Below the pieces are notes generated by a model. It was given only the letters and a program-made list of their open reading frames with translations, did not search any database and was not told the DNA's origin. A program made the translations under genes and the position numbers. Shown here piece by piece: positions 1,415 through 9,663 of a DNA stretch of 64,000 bases (positions within the stretch are counted from its first letter, which is position 1; each line of letters begins with the position of its first letter). The DNA comes from Paludibacteraceae bacterium (GTDB lineage: Bacteria; Bacteroidota; Bacteroidia; Bacteroidales; Paludibacteraceae), in assembly GCA_017446585.1 (NCBI GenBank), contig JAFSQL010000012.1, positions 1-64,000 of the forward strand, in the 5' to 3' direction.

Positions 1415-1735
1415 ATGGCCGAATTGAAATTCCCTGTGACCGAACTTGATAAGAATAGATTTCAAGTTGTCGTTGATATGGCTATTTATGCCAAAGAATC
1501 TCTTGTTGCTGCTTGCTATAAGTTCACAGACCGATTCTATATTCATCAGGAAACGTCTGGTAGCAATGTTATTGCCACTTTTGAGGCAAAGGATGGCAAT
1601 GACATTTCGGATGTGATAGTCAAGCAGTTTTGCAATGAACTTATAGACCAGCAGGTTCGCTTTAATACGAATCAGCAATTTGGCCATATTCGTGATTTGA
1701 TTGTTGAGGAAGCTTTTAAACCAGTTAGCAAATGA
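1415..1735 (+). CDS. hxsD: His-Xaa-Ser system protein HxsD
   Basis: This 106-residue cytoplasmic protein has no signal peptide or membrane segment and matches the small HxsD partner of the Hxs radical-SAM cassette in length and in the start (fPVTELDKNRF, then VVDMAIYAKESLVAACYKF). Its biochemical role is unknown; a substrate-recognition or scaffold role for HxsB/HxsC is inference. Its last codon and stop overlap the hxsB start (ATGA at 1732-1735), so the two are translationally coupled, which supports a complex. The ATG at 1415 is the first start that fits the family. Identification rests on family resemblance plus the diagnostic neighbours hxsB, hxsC and hxsA. Confidence 0.85.
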   Translation: MAELKFPVTELDKNRFQVVVDMAIYAKESLVAACYKFTDRFYIHQETSGSNVIATFEAKDGNDISDVIVKQFCNELIDQQVRFNTNQQFGHIRDLIVEEAFKPVSK

Positions 1736-3153
1736 GTGATTACCAAATACTCCCCTTCCGCTTCGCCCGCTTCAATGAGTCTGAGTACTTGCTAACGAAT
1801 GATGTTGGCGAGTACATCTTCCTTCGTAATGAGGATTTCGAGAAATTCATCAACAAGGAACTGGATGTGAAGTCAACGGTGTTCCAAGACATTGCATCGA
1901 AGCAAATTGCCACGACCGACAAAGTGGAGGACGTGGTAAATATGCTAGCTACTAAGTTTAGGACAAAAAAAAGTATATTGAGAGATTTCACCAGCCTGCA
2001 CATGGTGGTGCCGACTTTGCGCTGCAATTCCAGTTGTATCTATTGCCAAGTGGCACGAAAGAACATGGACGATCATGAAGCAGACATGACGAAGCAGACG
2101 GCTAAGAATGTGGTGAAAACCATCTTCCAATCTCCGTCACCCTGCATCAAAATTGAGTTCCAAGGCGGAGACCCTTCGACATATTTTGAGATGGTGAAGT
2201 ACATCATTGAGGAAGCAGAATGGCAAAACCTTTTCAAGAAGAAAGACCTGGGATTTGTAATCTGTACAAATGTCACGCTGCTCACCCCTGACATGGTGAA
2301 ATATTTGAAGAAGCATAAGTGCGACATTTCGACCTCGCTTGATGGACCAAAGGAATTGCACAATATAAACCGTCCGCTCCAAGATACGACGCATACCCAT
2401 GAGAAGTTTGAGGAGAACATCAAGATGATTCGTGAGATATGTGGGCAGGACAGCGTGTCGGCACTGATGACAACATCGAAATACAGTCTCGGCCACTTCA
2501 AGGAGATTATCGATGAATATGTTCGTATGGGCTACAACAACATTTTCCTTCGCGCTTTGAATCCGTATGGCTTTGCCAAGCAATACAAGGAAAAGATAGC
2601 CTATCCCGTGGAGGATTTTATCGAGAACTTCAAGGAAGGTCTTGACTATATCATAGAACTGAACAAGCAGGGAACTTTCTTCATTGAGGGATATGCGGCT
2701 CTGCTGTTGAAGCGAATACTCACGCCCTTTGCAACGGGTTTTGTGGACTTGCAATCTCCCGCAGGTGTCGGCATTGCAGGAGCAATCTATGACTGGGACG
2801 GCAACGTCTATGTAGCCGATGAGGGCAGAATGTTGGCGCGTTTCAAGGACTACTATTTCAAACTGGGCAATGTGAATGAAGACAGCTATCAGTCGATGTT
2901 CAACGGCGAGAAGCTACACAACATCATTGAGAACGCTTGCACGGAATGTTTGCCCATGTGTTCCGAGTGTGTTTTCCAGCCCTATTGTGGAGCAGACCCT
3001 GTGCGCAACTATTCTGAGCAGGGTGACATGGTGGGGCATCGTCCTACGAGCGATATGTGCAAAAAGAATACTGCGATTATGCACTACTTGTTTGAGTTGC
3101 TAAAGAAGCATGATCCAGAGACAAACAGAATATTTTGGTCTTGGATAAATTAG
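1732..3153 (+). CDS. hxsB: His-Xaa-Ser system radical SAM maturase HxsB
   Basis: This 473-residue radical-SAM enzyme has the [4Fe-4S] motif C98-x3-C102-x2-C105 (RCNSSCIYC), the SAM-contacting FQGGDPS that follows it, and a C-terminal SPASM-like cysteine cluster (C403, C406, C410, C413, C419, C443) expected to bind auxiliary Fe-S clusters. The N-terminal ~80 residues (LPFRFARFNESEYLL) form the leader domain typical of HxsB. Radical-SAM/SPASM proteins usually modify ribosomally made peptides. By context the substrate is the H-x-S repeat peptide at 4870, but the chemistry is not known. It overlaps hxsD by four bases and is followed after six bases by hxsC, so it is the second gene of a tight operon. 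Confidence 0.93.
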   Translation: MSDYQILPFRFARFNESEYLLTNDVGEYIFLRNEDFEKFINKELDVKSTVFQDIASKQIATTDKVEDVVNMLATKFRTKKSILRDFTSLHMVVPTLRCNSSCIYCQVARKNMDDHEADMTKQTAKNVVKTIFQSPSPCIKIEFQGGDPSTYFEMVKYIIEEAEWQNLFKKKDLGFVICTNVTLLTPDMVKYLKKHKCDISTSLDGPKELHNINRPLQDTTHTHEKFEENIKMIREICGQDSVSALMTTSKYSLGHFKEIIDEYVRMGYNNIFLRALNPYGFAKQYKEKIAYPVEDFIENFKEGLDYIIELNKQGTFFIEGYAALLLKRILTPFATGFVDLQSPAGVGIAGAIYDWDGNVYVADEGRMLARFKDYYFKLGNVNEDSYQSMFNGEKLHNIIENACTECLPMCSECVFQPYCGADPVRNYSEQGDMVGHRPTSDMCKKNTAIMHYLFELLKKHDPETNRIFWSWIN

Positions 3154-3159
3154 AACGAT

Positions 3160-4818
3160 ATGAAACAGATTAACGGAACAGCATTCAATATCGAATCGGA
3201 CATCCTTGGCCGAATAACGTTGAAAGGAAAGAGCATCTTTAACCGAAAGGACGAGATACTCGTAAAGGCAGATGCAAAGGATTTGCCATCGGGCTATGCT
3301 GCCTTGATTACAAACAGCGAGAATATTAGTGGAGGCAAGCCATGTGTAGGGAATGTCCAGACGCTTGACGATTTTAATGAGGGCGATGTGGTGCTGATTA
3401 ACAAAAGGGGCGAAATAGTGTTCCTCTATGAAATAAGGTCAATGCACAATGCTATCTTTGCCACAGAGCGTTGTAATCACCGCTGCATCATGTGTCCGCA
3501 GCCTCCTGTTGCTGAAGAAGAGGACAAAACGCCATTCAATCTCAAACTGATTTCGTTAATAGACAAGAATACGGTAGAGGTTGGCATTACTGGCGGTGAG
3601 CCTACGCTGATAGGTGACAAGTTATTTGACCTCATAAAGCAGATACAGAAATATCAGCCGAAAGCGGGAATTAGTTTGCTAACCAATGGAGTGAAGTTTG
3701 CAGATAAAAGCTATGCTATGAAATTGGCTATGTGTAAGCATCACGACTTACAAATAGATGTGCCGATTTTCTCAGACATTGCCGATGAGCATAACCGCAT
3801 CGTAGGAGCTAAGACATTCTATAAGACGGTGCAAGGGCTTTACAATCTCGCGTTGTTCCATCAGCGTATCGGGCCGAGAATAGTAGTGCATAAGCAGACC
3901 TATAAGCGATTGCCACAACTGGCCGATTACATCTATCACAATTTCCCCTTTGTAAGCCAAGTGGCATTCCTGCAAATGGAAACTACAGGCAACGCAGATA
4001 CCAATCTCGACGAATTGTGGATAGACCCATACGATTACAACGAGGAACTGAAACAAGCTGTCTTGCTTTTGGCAAATCGTGGTATCTGTACCCGTGTATA
4101 TAATGCTCAGCTATGTGTGTTGCCTTACGAAATAAGGAAGTTTGCAGTCAATGCAATCTCTGATTGGAAAGATACATATCTGCCCGAGTGTGAGGGATGC
4201 AAGCTCCGCCAGCAATGCGGAGGACTATTTGCTTCTAATCAGAAGCATCATAGCGCACACATAAAGCCTGAGCTGAAGTATACTCCTATGCCACCACCGG
4301 TTGACGGAAATACAACAATATCTCCATTTTTGGAGAAATACTTAACAGAAGAATTATTGATTCAATGTAATAATCCAATTATCTATGATGTACCATGTGG
4401 ATATGGCAGACATTTACAATGGTTGGCGAAAAAAGGATATGAAGTGCATGGTATCGATTTAGATGCCAAAGCATTAAACTTCGTAGAAGAATGGAAAGAA
4501 CAGCATGGAATGAAAAGAGTATTTATATCTAAAGAGGATATTGATAGGCTAAAGATTCAATCTTGCTGTGATATTATGCTAAATATACATCTGTATTCAA
4601 AAGAAATATTGAAAGTTCTATCTCAGATGGTCAAATTTAATGGATTGTTCGTAATTGAGACACCAGAAATACATGGTGGAAACTATTTAGAATTACCAGT
4701 ACAAGGGGAAGTTGGTGAATATCTTAAATCACAAAGATATGAATTGATGATTTATGAAGAAAGTGTCCCACAAAAGGGGCATGTTTCTGTAAAAGCAATT
4801 GCGCGAAAATTGGCGTAA
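3160..4818 (+). CDS. hxsC: radical SAM maturase HxsC fused to a class I methyltransferase
   Basis: Residues 1-365 are HxsC: an N-terminal region, the radical-SAM motif C105-x3-C109-x2-C112 (RCNHRCIMC), GGEP at 145-148, and a C-terminal cluster C344-x2-C347-x5-C353. The protein then continues to 552 residues with a Rossmann methyltransferase: motif I DVPCGYGRH (410-418) and an acidic residue after strand 2 (GIDLD, D433 and D435). Plain HxsC proteins end near residue 370-380, so this is a domain fusion. The junction (around 4300) also marks a composition change: 29 of 60 bases are G/C in 3961-4020 against 15 of 60 in 4321-4380 and 15 of 60 in 4561-4620. The frame is open throughout with no frameshift. 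The methyltransferase target is unknown; the H-x-S peptide is the obvious candidate. Confidence 0.92.
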   Translation: MKQINGTAFNIESDILGRITLKGKSIFNRKDEILVKADAKDLPSGYAALITNSENISGGKPCVGNVQTLDDFNEGDVVLINKRGEIVFLYEIRSMHNAIFATERCNHRCIMCPQPPVAEEEDKTPFNLKLISLIDKNTVEVGITGGEPTLIGDKLFDLIKQIQKYQPKAGISLLTNGVKFADKSYAMKLAMCKHHDLQIDVPIFSDIADEHNRIVGAKTFYKTVQGLYNLALFHQRIGPRIVVHKQTYKRLPQLADYIYHNFPFVSQVAFLQMETTGNADTNLDELWIDPYDYNEELKQAVLLLANRGICTRVYNAQLCVLPYEIRKFAVNAISDWKDTYLPECEGCKLRQQCGGLFASNQKHHSAHIKPELKYTPMPPPVDGNTTISPFLEKYLTEELLIQCNNPIIYDVPCGYGRHLQWLAKKGYEVHGIDLDAKALNFVEEWKEQHGMKRVFISKEDIDRLKIQSCCDIMLNIHLYSKEILKVLSQMVKFNGLFVIETPEIHGGNYLELPVQGEVGEYLKSQRYELMIYEESVPQKGHVSVKAIARKLA

Positions 4819-4858
4819 GCCAAGAGTGATAGTTAATTATATGTTTAACCAATTAAAA

Positions 4859-4869: not shown

Positions 4870-5130
4870 ATGAAGAGAGTATTATTTCTTTTGGTCTCTG
4901 CCCTTCTTGCTGGAACCACGTATGCTTCAAACCTGAGCAAGGATGTAATTGCAAAGGTAACGAATAGTAACGAGGTGTCTATCACTGAGCGGGGACAATC
5001 TCTGATTCTGGAGCAGCCTGTGAGTACGCAGCTTCATGCTAACCAACATGGTTCTCATGTGTCGCACTCTTCTCACAGCTCTCACAGTTCTCACCGCTCT
5101 CATTCGTCTCACTACTCAAGTAGGTTCTGA
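4870..5130 (+). CDS. hxsA: secreted His-Xaa-Ser repeat peptide HxsA
   Basis: This 86-residue precursor has a Sec signal peptide (MKRVLFLLVSALLAGTTYA, cleavage expected after A20), a linker of about 40 residues, and eight uninterrupted H-x-S triplets at residues 60-83 (HGS HVS HSS HSS HSS HRS HSS HYS), ending SRF. It is the presumed substrate of HxsB and HxsC: repeat peptides of this kind define the cassette. The distance from hxsC is 51 bases, and an intrinsic terminator follows, so it closes the operon. The strong Shine-Dalgarno suggests it is made in excess over the enzymes. His and Ser density suggests metal binding or a modified side chain; neither can be read from sequence. It was found by the repeat and its neighbours, since the linker is not conserved enough to recognise. 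Confidence 0.9.
   Translation: MKRVLFLLVSALLAGTTYASNLSKDVIAKVTNSNEVSITERGQSLILEQPVSTQLHANQHGSHVSHSSHSSHSSHRSHSSHYSSRF
5047..5118 (+). repeat. eight tandem His-Xaa-Ser codon triplets
   Basis: Eight 9-base units encode H-x-S. His and Ser codons vary (cat/cac, tct/tcg/agc/agt), so the repeat is kept at protein level and is not a recent slippage product, although the core HSS units are nearly identical. Confidence 0.9.
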
Positions 5131-5157
5131 ATGAGCGAGGAATCACCTCAAAAATTA

Positions 5158-5193
5158 GGATGCCATAGCCAAGTGTTATGACATCCTTTTTTG
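5158..5193 (+). terminator. intrinsic terminator of the hxs operon
   Basis: GGATGCCAT pairs with ATGACATCC (one mismatch) around a short loop and runs into TTTTTT, 28 bases after the hxsA stop. Confidence 0.7.
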
Positions 5194-5218
5194 TTAATAA
5201 TACTTCCACACTAGTCAG

Positions 5219-5557
5219 CTATTGAATCCAATGGAAATATACGTAGAAAGCACTTTCTCCGATAGAAACAATTGAATTGGGAATGGTAATACTACTGATA
5301 TTACATCCATAAAAAGCTTTATTATGTATAGCAGTGACATCTAACTCTTTGGTGTTATAGGTAACCTTTGATGGTATAATTATATTACCAGAATATCCTC
5401 CCCCCGACCCTGTTGCGCCCGTTACATAAGCGGTCATTGAAGTTGTTTCAAGGCCATAATAGATTCCGTCGACTTCAAAGTCGTATGCCAATACGTTTTT
5501 GCTGATGAAGAGCAAGGACAAAACAAGAAAAAGGAGTTTATGTTTCATGATTTTCAT
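5219..5557 (-). pseudogene. truncated BspA-like leucine-rich-repeat surface protein
   Basis: The 112-residue frame starts with a signal peptide (MKHKLLFLVLSLLFISKNVLA) followed by the BspA-type N-terminus (YDFEVDGIYYGL), an entry strand (IIIPSKVTY) and a single LRR_5 repeat (KAFYGCNISSITIPNSIVSIG). It stops after AFYVYFHWIQ. Members of this family normally carry many LRR_5 repeats and a C-terminal anchor or sorting domain and run to several hundred residues, so this is a 3'-deleted remnant or a small secreted derivative. No further LRR coding is visible downstream of the stop before the hxsA terminator. It sits back to back with the hxs cassette (convergent). Confidence 0.7.
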
Positions 5558-5813: not shown

Positions 5814-7685
5814 TTATTTTTGTGTGAAGTCGTGGTGGAGGTATTGGACGTAGGACTGGGCGAAGTGGAGGAGGGAGTCGCGGAAGGGGGAGTCGGCTCC
5901 ATAGAAATAGGTGTCGGTGTCGTTGTCAATGTCACGATAGAGGGCAAGTTCGGGGGAGATGAGCCCCCAACCCTCCTTGCGGAAGTAGAAGGCGTAGTGG
6001 TCTTGCGAGAAGAGGTTTTTTAATAGTGGCGATGTGGCGGAATCCGCAAACCCGAGTTGCTGTGCGAGGGTGGTGCCGAGGTCGGTTTGCGAGCAGATGT
6101 AGTCGATGGTGAGGGTGTCGGTGACGGCTCCACCGGTCCAGATCATAGGGATGCGGTAGGACTCGGGGCGAGTGACGTCGGTGCGCGGCTCGGGGAGGAG
6201 GGAGGTGTGGTCGGCGGTGACGATGAGCAGCGTGTGCGCCCATGAGGGTGAGCGGCGGAGGCGGTCAACGAAGGCACCGAGGCAACTGTCGCAGTAGGTG
6301 ACGGCATTGAGGTAGCGTTGGCTCTCGGTGTCAGCGTGGGCGAGCGGGGAGTGTGGCGGAAGGTCGAAGGGCTCGTGGGTGGAGATGTTATAGACGACGG
6401 CGAAGAGCGGTTTGGTTCGCGGCGTGAGGACGAAGTCGGCAAATTCGGAATAGAGGTATTCGTCAGGAGCACCCCACTTGGACATCATGGCGACGGAGGC
6501 AGGGAAGTCGGAGCGCGAGAAGACGTTGTCAACGCCAGACTGGATGAGCATCATCTTGGTGTTGTAGAAGTCGAGGTCGCCGCCGTAGTGGAAAGCCACG
6601 TCGTAGCCGTTGCGCTTGAAGAGCGCGGGGAGGTAGTCGGCATGGCGCATCTTGTCCGGGAATCCAAGGATGGACGAGGCACCGCCCGAAAGGGCGGGAT
6701 ACTGGGCGAGGAGCGCGCTGAGACCGCGGTCGGAGCGGCTGCCGGTGGCGTAGCAGTTGGTGAAGGCGATGCCCTCGGCAACCATGCGGTCGATGTTGGG
6801 CGTGAGACCGTCCATGCCGTTGAGCGATTGGATGACACGGTCAGAGAAGGATTCGAGAATGACGAGGATGACGTTGACGGGTTTGCCGTCGGCAGCGCGG
6901 ACATGGACGGGCAACGAGTCGGCAGGGAGCGACTGTGCGGCACGGCGCGTGAGGACGTCGAGGGCCTCGTCGGGCGAAGAGTAATGGAATGGGTTGCGAG
7001 AGTAGTCGTTGTGGGTGAGGGCGCGGAAGAAGCACCAGAAGGAGTTGTAGGCGGCATGATTGGCGTAGGGCTTCTCGGAGAAATAGATGGAGGAAAAATT
7101 GAGCGGAGCGGTGTCAATGCCTCCCCGCATGGGCAGGATGAGCAGGGTGGTGAGCAGGAGCGTGAGGAAGGAGAAGGTGACGGCGTGGCGACTCCTCGAG
7201 GTGGTGCGCGAGAGGCAGAACGACTTGAAGAAGAGGAAAAGGAAAAGAGCCGAAATGGTCAGCCAAGCCAGCACGGAGAGCAGGAGTTGCGGCAAGCTGA
7301 CGCTACGGAAGACTGCCAAGGGGTCGGAGAGGTAAGGGAACACCTGCTGGTCGATGCGCGACTCCCAAGCGGGGTAGAGGGACATGTCGCCCAGCACGAT
7401 GAGCGTGACAAGGGGCAGGGCGACGCAGGTGTAGATCCTTATGACACGAAAGGCAACGGCAGGGAAAAAGAAGGAGAGCGCGAGCATGACTCCCGGCAGG
7501 AGGGAGAGGTAGGCAGCGGCGGAGAGATCCATCTTGAGACCATGGAAGAAGACTTTCGCAACCTCGGACGGGGAAAGAAGGGCGGTGAAGTTGGCGTTGA
7601 AAAGGAGGAAAAGCACTTTGGCGACGAGGAAGTAGAGAAGCCAAAAACAGAAATAGCGGAGCAGGAAAAAGAAGGCACTGCGCAT
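5814..7685 (-). CDS. LtaS-like membrane phosphotransferase of the sulfatase fold
   Basis: The protein has about 623 residues from the ATG at 7685; a TTG two codons upstream is a weaker start. Five hydrophobic segments fill residues 5-190, then comes an extracytoplasmic alkaline-phosphatase/sulfatase domain. Visible active-site elements are VILVILESFS (metal ligand E278), GSRSDRG (candidate nucleophile S318), STHEPF (H437) and TADH (D492, H493). The architecture is that of lipoteichoic acid synthase, MdoB/OpgB and YejM. In a Gram-negative host the product is probably a glycerol-phosphate or ethanolamine-phosphate decoration of glycan or lipid in the periplasm; the exact donor is not predictable. 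The gene is strikingly G+C-rich (39 of 60 bases in 6121-6180). It is divergent from the lipoprotein at 7786, and each has its own -7 element. Confidence 0.88.
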   Translation of the reverse strand: MRSAFFFLLRYFCFWLLYFLVAKVLFLLFNANFTALLSPSEVAKVFFHGLKMDLSAAAYLSLLPGVMLALSFFFPAVAFRVIRIYTCVALPLVTLIVLGDMSLYPAWESRIDQQVFPYLSDPLAVFRSVSLPQLLLSVLAWLTISALFLFLFFKSFCLSRTTSRSRHAVTFSFLTLLLTTLLILPMRGGIDTAPLNFSSIYFSEKPYANHAAYNSFWCFFRALTHNDYSRNPFHYSSPDEALDVLTRRAAQSLPADSLPVHVRAADGKPVNVILVILESFSDRVIQSLNGMDGLTPNIDRMVAEGIAFTNCYATGSRSDRGLSALLAQYPALSGGASSILGFPDKMRHADYLPALFKRNGYDVAFHYGGDLDFYNTKMMLIQSGVDNVFSRSDFPASVAMMSKWGAPDEYLYSEFADFVLTPRTKPLFAVVYNISTHEPFDLPPHSPLAHADTESQRYLNAVTYCDSCLGAFVDRLRRSPSWAHTLLIVTADHTSLLPEPRTDVTRPESYRIPMIWTGGAVTDTLTIDYICSQTDLGTTLAQQLGFADSATSPLLKNLFSQDHYAFYFRKEGWGLISPELALYRDIDNDTDTYFYGADSPFRDSLLHFAQSYVQYLHHDFTQK

Positions 7686-7785: not shown

Positions 7786-9663
7786 ATGGGAAAAACAAGA
7801 ATAGTATGGTTGGCGGTGGCGGCACAGTTGCTGATGGCGTGCGCCAACAAGGGGACAGGTCCGCAGGGCGGTCCGCAGGACGTAGCCGCCCCGAGGGAGA
7901 GGACGTGTTCGCCAACCCGCAACGCGACGAACGTTCATCCGAAGCGCGTGGAGTTGTGGTTTGACGAGAACATACAGTTGAAGGACGCGCAGAAGAACAT
8001 CGTGGTGTCGCCACCACAGGAGATAGCACCCGTCATCACCGCCAACGGAAAGAAACTGACGGTGGAGTTCAACGACACGCTGCGCGAGAACACGACCTAC
8101 TCGATAGACTTCGGCAACGCCGTGTGCGACCTGAACGAGGGCAACGCCCTGAAGGGATACACCTACGCCTTCTCGACAGGGGCGAGCATAGACAGCATGG
8201 AGATGAGCGGCACGGTGCTGAACGCCCAGACGTTGAGCCCGATGGAGGGAATGATAGTGGGGCTGTATGAGCCGTTTGACACGGCACGGCAGGACAGCGT
8301 GGGTCCGAGATACAGGATGCCCGCACGCATAGCCCGGAGTGACGAGAACGGGAAGTTCACGATAAGGAACGTCAAGGAAGGACGATATGAGGTGTTCGCG
8401 CTGAAAGACGCAAACGGAGACTACCTGTACACGGAAGGGGAGATGTTCGGATGGTTGGACAGCAGTGTCACGACACGGTCGGAGCAAGTGACGGTGAATG
8501 ACACCGTGTGGAGAAAACGGGACAGCGAGAAGGACGGGGCGGAAGGAGACTCGATGGTGGTGGATAGCATTGTGCAACGCACGGAGACTTTGTTCTATCC
8601 GAACGATTTGTTGCTGCTTGCGTCAATGAACAAGCCAAGTCGTCAGAGGGTTGTGAAGACGACGCGCCCGATGGCGAACAGGGTGGACATCTACATGCAA
8701 GAAACGAGCGAGACGGCACCGCGAATAGCACTGGCGGAAGGTGACGGGCAGTTGATGACCACCTACAACACGGGGAAAGACAGCATAAAGGTGTGGATAG
8801 CGGACAGCGCGACCCAATGGACGGAAGTGGTGGCACTGACCGTGACCTACGAAAGGCAGGACAGCACGGGAAGCACGGTGACGGAGACCGACACGGTGAA
8901 GGCACGGTATAACATCAAGAACCTGAGAAGACAAGTGGAGAAAGAACGGGAGTCGGCCAAGGGAAACTCCGTTCAACTCACGCTGCCGAAGAATAAGGTG
9001 CAAGAGTGGGAGACGGCAGTGATTACGGCACCCGCCCCTATGACCCGTTTCGACACGGAGAAGGTACACTTGCTGGCGACGGCGGACAGCGTATGGAAGG
9101 CGGTGGATTCAGTATCCTTTATCCTCATGCCGGCGGACACGACCAATAGTGCGTATGCGAAGGTCAACTTGCGCGCGGACTGGAAGCAAGACATGAAATA
9201 TAGGGTGGAGGTGGACAGTGACGCTGTGACTACCATAGACGGCAAGGTGAATAGCCGGCAGCAGTCGGAATGGGTGATAGACGGCAAGGAGAATTACGCC
9301 AACCTCGTGGTGTTCGTGATACCTGAGGATGAGGCTCTGACAGAACAATTGGAAAAAGCGCGATTGCAGTTGTTGAGCGACCATGATGACGTAGTGAGCG
9401 AGTTGCCTTACGAGAAAGATGGCACGCGTTTTGAATATGTACAACCAGACACCTACTTCTTGAGAATGTATGTTGACGAGAACGGCGACGAACGCTACAC
9501 TCCGGGTGACTGGATGTTAAATCGTCAAGCGGAGGCGACTTACTACATGAAAGAAGGCATGAAGTTACGCGCCAACTGGGACGTGGAGCAGGAGTGGAAT
9601 CCGAGTTTGAAGGACATAGAGACGATGAAACCAAAAGTGTTGTTGGAAAACGAAAAAGACTAA
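7786..9663 (+). CDS. Ig-like (Big_5) domain lipoprotein
   Basis: The ATG at 7786 gives MGKTRIVWLAVAAQLLMAC, a signal peptide with lipobox and lipidated Cys19; the frame is open 42 bases further upstream only through a TTG. An N-terminal Ig-like Big_5 domain follows (residues about 35-125: KRVELWFDENIQLKDA, LTVEFNDTLRENTTYSIDFG, YAFSTG), then a long region of beta-rich repeats with YEVFALKDANGDYLY and YFLRMYVDENGDERYTPGDW motifs typical of this Bacteroidetes family. The total is 625 residues. It is an outer-membrane-anchored protein of unknown role. The DUF3108 gene starts 12 bases after it, so the two are probably co-transcribed. Confidence 0.82.
   Translation: MGKTRIVWLAVAAQLLMACANKGTGPQGGPQDVAAPRERTCSPTRNATNVHPKRVELWFDENIQLKDAQKNIVVSPPQEIAPVITANGKKLTVEFNDTLRENTTYSIDFGNAVCDLNEGNALKGYTYAFSTGASIDSMEMSGTVLNAQTLSPMEGMIVGLYEPFDTARQDSVGPRYRMPARIARSDENGKFTIRNVKEGRYEVFALKDANGDYLYTEGEMFGWLDSSVTTRSEQVTVNDTVWRKRDSEKDGAEGDSMVVDSIVQRTETLFYPNDLLLLASMNKPSRQRVVKTTRPMANRVDIYMQETSETAPRIALAEGDGQLMTTYNTGKDSIKVWIADSATQWTEVVALTVTYERQDSTGSTVTETDTVKARYNIKNLRRQVEKERESAKGNSVQLTLPKNKVQEWETAVITAPAPMTRFDTEKVHLLATADSVWKAVDSVSFILMPADTTNSAYAKVNLRADWKQDMKYRVEVDSDAVTTIDGKVNSRQQSEWVIDGKENYANLVVFVIPEDEALTEQLEKARLQLLSDHDDVVSELPYEKDGTRFEYVQPDTYFLRMYVDENGDERYTPGDWMLNRQAEATYYMKEGMKLRANWDVEQEWNPSLKDIETMKPKVLLENEKD

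Follow-up and report, generated by a model that had tools for sequence, protein, structure and literature searches.

The window analysed here, that is, the whole stretch of 64,000 nucleotides from a Paludibacteraceae bacterium (contig JAFSQL010000012.1 of a MAG that is 51.6% complete), harbors a compact forward-strand operon of the Hxs system, of which the original description is reportedly that of Haft and Basu, with hxsD, hxsB, an hxsC fusion gene and the gene of an HxsA-like peptide in that order. The hxsD gene (1415–1735) matched TIGR03976 with 88.2 bits (cut-off 50) and overlaps by four bases with hxsB (1732–3153), whose product, a radical SAM/SPASM maturase, matched TIGR03978 with 649.1 bits (cut-off 370) and Pfam SPASM with 23.3 bits (cut-off 21.5), so both HxsD and HxsB are encoded together with HxsC. 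Near the operon, an open frame on the reverse strand (1–1000) is truncated by the window start, and we take it to resemble AlbA_2-type proteins.

The hxsC-methyltransferase gene of the window

The fusion gene (3160–4818, forward strand) is a single open frame of 552 codons encoding 552 aa, in which HxsC is followed by a class I methyltransferase domain, as the original prediction had proposed. Residues 72–359 (3373–4236) matched the curated profile TIGR03977 with 363.9 bits (cut-off 267.9), which places the protein in the HxsC family, while residues 408–503 matched Pfam Methyltransf_31 with 38.6 bits (gathering 27). The tail also exceeded the gathering thresholds of Pfam Methyltransf_25 (35.6 bits, gathering 27), Methyltransf_11 and TehB, and by these domain models it is a class I SAM-dependent methyltransferase domain.

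Across 43 aligned HxsC proteins, C105, C109 and C112 of the radical-SAM CxxxCxxC motif (CNHRCIMC, 3472–3495) are invariant, as are C319 and the C-terminal C344, C347 and C353 (4189–4218), with C353 being the last invariant cysteine, just where the cysteine cluster had been predicted to end. Though HxsC had been described as SPASM-type, Pfam SPASM matched only HxsB among the Hxs proteins of the window, despite the invariance of C319, C344, C347 and C353. The frame continues for 199 residues beyond C353, and not for about 180 as previously given, and it is open, with no stop, between residues 360 and 400, as the prediction needed. Motif I (DVPCGYGRH, residues 410–418, 4387–4413) and GIDLD (residues 431–435, 4450–4464), presumed to form the acidic end of the second strand, were both located in the tail as originally read, and a further signature, IETPEIHGGNYLELP, occupies residues 499–513 (4654–4698).

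Behind the fusion gene lies the hxsA-like precursor (4870–5130), an 86-aa peptide with an N-terminal hydrophobic stretch and SHxS repeats, which stays below every curated cut-off (TIGR03979 30.9 against 121.65, a further score of 29.9 against 55, and HxsA2 29.5 against 48) and is named HxsA-like because its repeats and its position fit.

Insertion and rarity of the tail

Eight close relatives (L003–L008, L010 and L054, the last of which is apparently a duplicate of the L004 contig) have HxsC proteins 93–95% identical to that of the window over residues 1–372/373, all without the tail. In blastn alignments with these eight, nucleotide identity is 84–87% in the piece ending at 4268, the alignment is then interrupted from 4268 to 4823–4825, and beyond this gap identity is 67–87% through hxsA. 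The ordinary hxsC of L007 has 35 bases at the site where the window has 556, so the inserted tail (4269–4824, 556 bp) takes the place of roughly 35 terminal bases of an ordinary hxsC. The GC content of the insert is 34.0% against 48.4% for the window, within the lowest 0.24% of 1269 stretches of 550 bp, and its GC3 is 25.5% against 48.9% in the HxsC body. Because the insert has matching flanks together with low GC and GC3, the tail was probably acquired from elsewhere after the divergence of the eight close relatives.

In the same genome, contig C10 carries at 8049–8132 on the reverse strand (1501–1584 of locus L002) a 3′ fragment of an ordinary hxsC, 86% identical to residues 346–373, which adjoins a piece of a gene resembling the reverse-strand frame at 1–1000 of the window and is perhaps a displaced remnant. 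The gap between hxsC and hxsA is at most 117 bases in the loci where both were found, with three exceptions, whose genes were named by reading the sequence: L036 (6113–9442, 3.3 kb) with two tandem, seemingly identical copies of a transposase-like gene, L039 (2051–3092, 1.0 kb) with a transposase-like frame, and L042 (1158–3501, 2.3 kb) with glycosyltransferase-like and membrane-like genes. Judging from these three loci, the gap is apparently a recurrent insertion spot.

The fusion is rare. A long frame (554) was found in only one of 14 over-cut-off HxsC proteins from 393 Bacteroidales genomes, namely the window's own, and the other 13 have frames of 293–384 aa, in line with the expectation that ordinary HxsC is free of the domain. 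In the family of the window (300 genomes), ten genomes had a match at E 1e-12, of which one spans the query, again the window's own, and in all 427 plasmid records that matched HxsC, coverage of the fusion query stayed below 80%. A tail was present in one of 54 related loci read to the stop (L030); the set includes four partial loci (L041, L044, L048 and L052), one that is unlikely to be an HxsC (L053) and, besides L054, two more apparent second copies, L055 (of L026) and L056 (of L038). More broadly, the domain is missing in 57 of 59 Hxs loci scanned, at least four of the 59 being second copies of the same contigs. The notion that the tail belongs to every HxsC was rejected on the basis of the related loci, the 393-genome and family surveys and the plasmid records.

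Overlapping samples from the order (295 genomes), the phylum (296) and the family (358) were searched with the tail alone, and 4, 9 and 4 matches were listed besides the window's own, the best reaching 46.1, 49.8 and 39.2 bits, respectively, in frames of 248–277 aa. By tblastn, the window tail had no match in 72,556 plasmid records or in 50,697 phage records, the free methyltransferase form of L049 (see below) had none in plasmid records, and among viral contigs no locus was confirmed by tail alignment, by the L049 form or by the signature as a DNA pattern; an origin of the tail in a mobile element or phage was set aside on these searches. Three contigs of a viral collection (L120–L122) carry an ordinary hxsC with an HxsA-like frame. 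The HxsC of L025, a MAG labelled Roseburia, groups among Bacteroidales ones in the tree, suggesting contamination or transfer.

A second fusion and free genes in Hxs operons

The second fusion, L030, comes from a rabbit-gut Bacteroides MAG, a separate assembly with 102x coverage according to its record, and carries the same tail in frame on HxsC. Its HxsC body is 71% identical to that of the window and its tail 43%, and the linkers behind HxsC are similar (12 of 18 residues identical). The HxsC of L030 pairs, away from the branch of the window, with the unfused L015, to which it is 94.1% identical in nucleotides up to base 6104, and the starred branches of the HxsC tree require the fused label to change twice; two host HxsC lineages thus carry the tail. 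The L030 insert of about 920–960 bp comprises the tail and an extra HxsA-like frame (6641–6952), and it is followed by a stretch that we read as left over from the 3′ end of the ordinary hxsC, and then by the native hxsA. This extra frame is open from an ATG overlapping the hxsC stop; by reading, the ATG preceded by a good ribosome-binding site does not share the frame of the repeats, which leaves the N-terminus of the extra frame uncertain.

Differences between the two tails amount to 0.464, 0.318 and 0.598 at codon positions 1, 2 and 3, and 45 of the 77 identical residues use different codons. The lower values at positions 1 and 2 than at position 3 are a sign of protein constraint, which may pre-date the fusion. 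The two fusions may reflect either a single fused donor whose 3′ end passed to both lineages or two captures of a free gene carrying this leader.

A profile of the two tails was run against 1555 frames of the 59 Hxs loci (again with at least four second copies), and besides L030 it returned one match with E < 0.1, a separate methyltransferase gene of Mucilaginibacter corticis (L049, 2730–3329, E 2.6e-20). This gene sits between hxsD and hxsB, and further along its operon come hxsC and two HxsA-like genes. When 291 genomes of the M. corticis family were searched with the methyltransferase alone, two genes were retrieved, that of L049 itself and one in G1233, which again lies between hxsD (5131–5499) and hxsB (6016–7518), with hxsC and two HxsA-like genes following. 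In both operons hxsD, hxsB and hxsC score over cut-off. With the two-tail profile the free gene of L049 reached 69.1 bits and that of G1233 reached 72.0 bits, the latter in a run that gave generic relatives at most 45.6, and no such member was seen outside Hxs operons in the order, phylum and family samples, since the non-own matches there stayed at or below 49.8 bits.

Identity between the fused forms and the L049 free form is low (44 of 175 and 51 of 176 residues). A tree of 21 proteins unites the four Hxs-linked forms (window, L030, L049 and G1233) in one clade (96/93, and 98% of 200 bootstrap trees), to be read with the caution that long branches meet in this tree and that its generic members had been selected with a profile. 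The SAM-site residues D-x-P-x-G-x-G-R and D-x-D are invariant in all four, including both aspartates of GIDLD, and so are the I, E, P, N, L and P of the signature IE[TS]P...N[YF]xxLP, which was absent from an alignment of 12 generic relatives, these being the loci, out of 19 considered, for which a frame was picked. The family known here consists of these four members, and finding four of four in Hxs operons is a biased count because it was Hxs genes that led to window, L030 and L049; its unbiased part is the G1233 gene, found with the methyltransferase alone, together with the lack of comparable scores elsewhere in the samples searched.

A putative methylation step in the Hxs pathway

Compared with ordinary HxsC (TIGR03977), the window protein is alike in its score over residues 72–359 and in the HxsA-like frame close behind hxsC, as in most relatives scanned, and differs by its C-terminal methyltransferase region of about 180 residues, which the ordinary form lacks. 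With generic class I methyltransferases having a CGxGRH motif I (Methyltransf_25/31, TehB-like), motif I and the acidic strand-2 end are common by alignment, whereas the window-type domain measures about 165–175 aa without the linker against 248–277 aa, being mostly shorter after strand 5, and the Hxs-linked domain is set apart by its own signature and clade. The family matches of the domain are generic (TehB, UbiG, PrmA-like). The tail scored 33 and 31.8 bits with the NCBIfam TehB tellurite methyltransferase models, far from their cut-offs of 303 and 218, and in NCBIfam (June 2026) the methyltransferase rows for these proteins were all far below cut-off among the matches listed. By sequence, the tail gave three weak methyltransferase matches among solved structures (best E 0.00089) and weak matches among PHROGs.

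The Hxs-linked enzymes resemble the methyltransferases of RiPP pathways, such as those of daptides (NF041820) and BGC9, in being encoded with a modified-peptide pathway, and yet NF041820 (cut-off 175) gave only 12.8 bits for the window tail and 31.1 for that of L030. BGC9 is one predicted Bacteroidales RiPP cluster for which a methyltransferase has been reported (PMC10352776); the text of that paper contains neither Hxs nor TIGR03977. A weak match was also obtained with TIGR04345, the C-terminal 4-mercaptohistidine N1-methyltransferase domain of OvoA (25.7 bits for L049 and 22.9 for L030, well short of the cut-off of 170). As this match is confined to the SAM-binding segment around motif I, it says nothing on the substrate, and histidine-type methylation is one possible target.

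Taken together, we consider it probable, at roughly 60%, that the tail is a compact class I methyltransferase dedicated to the Hxs system, free or fused to HxsC, which methylates HxsA. The original prediction that methylation has been added to the Hxs pathway was strengthened by the two operons with a relative as a separate gene between hxsD and hxsB, while catalysis, HxsA as the substrate, the order of the steps and the dedication to Hxs are inferences. The fuller picture, which we hold to be slightly better than an even bet, is that of an undescribed Hxs accessory family of small SAM-dependent enzymes (about 165–200 aa, depending on the start chosen), encoded separately between hxsD and hxsB in operons of the Mucilaginibacter type and mobilised in Bacteroidales onto HxsC as a 3′ cassette, which in L030 brought its own HxsA variant, so that a single polypeptide would both radical-modify and methylate one and the same repeat peptide.

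According to PMC9062424, the His-Xaa-Ser peptide putatively relies on the radical-SAM proteins HxsB and HxsC for maturation. The methyltransferase is encoded as a free enzyme between hxsD and hxsB in some Bacteroidota, whereas in two or more lineages of Bacteroidales a cassette has replaced or interrupted the 3′ end of hxsC and fused the domain to HxsC just behind the C-terminal cysteines. In the mechanism that we propose, HxsD, HxsB and HxsC would engage the His-x-Ser repeat peptide HxsA in the cytoplasm, the radical-SAM enzymes would modify it, and the fused domain would methylate the same peptide before export, either on a repeat side chain or on a group made by the radical step, the candidate targets being repeat histidines or serines or the product of that step. 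The position of the fusion behind the HxsC cysteines and the free operon relative fit such a tailoring step on the same peptide.

Two other readings concern what the domain does. It might be active on something other than HxsA, such as HxsB or HxsD, another cell component or a small molecule, since nothing in the sequence fixes the substrate and the family matches are generic; we regard this as unlikely, given that hxsD, hxsB, hxsC and HxsA-like frames are the genes seen in common at the four loci (a count made without systematic comparison) and that the L030 cassette carries its own HxsA-like frame. Slightly less probable still is a tail that binds SAM or the precursor and no longer methylates, serving as a structural or substrate-binding extension of HxsC. 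The domain does lack much of the stretch after the fifth strand of its 248–277-aa relatives, and no known active-site motif was recognised in it, but the SAM-site residues are kept in all four members, and the free forms are of similar size (173–199 aa by the start chosen), so the compactness of the tail is not a decay that followed the fusion.

An assembly chimera, or a recent insertion without function, would account for the deviating GC and GC3 of the insert in a window that comes from a MAG, and the hxsC–hxsA gap does hold transposase-like genes in L036 and L039. We nevertheless consider it very improbable, and an assembly error or frameshift was likewise rejected as unlikely, because both flanks match those of the relatives and L030, in a separate assembly, has the same domain in an intact frame behind a similar linker; the two tails, moreover, share only 43% of their residues and still keep frame and motifs.

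Favouring the Hxs-dedicated methyltransferase, then, we regard the fusion and the matching free gene elsewhere as evidence that some Hxs pathways include a methylation step, which suggests that HxsA peptides in some bacteria may be methylated as well as radical-modified. The fusion also shows that tailoring domains can be added at the 3′ end of hxsC, and radical-SAM peptide pathways may diversify in this way. Both the Hxs system and class I methyltransferases have been described before, and what appears new is their combination: among open-licence papers, we found none on an Hxs methyltransferase, whether fused or as an operon gene, and none describing the product of an Hxs system.

Variation was also observed among the precursors. 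An HGSHV motif occurs in the HxsA-like peptide of the window, in the extra peptide of L030 and in L036, that is, in three of 45 distinct peptides (the filter missed some loci), or in one of the 43 others, and the native second peptide of L030 is without it. As the motif was spotted post hoc in a tiny sample, and as that native peptide does not carry it, co-variation of the precursor was set aside as support. Long extra frames with SHYSGTH-type repeats, 157–164 codons between stops, were located upstream of hxsC on the forward strand in L012 (about 3073) and L013 (about 3094), that of L012 being present in addition to the usual HxsA-like frame.
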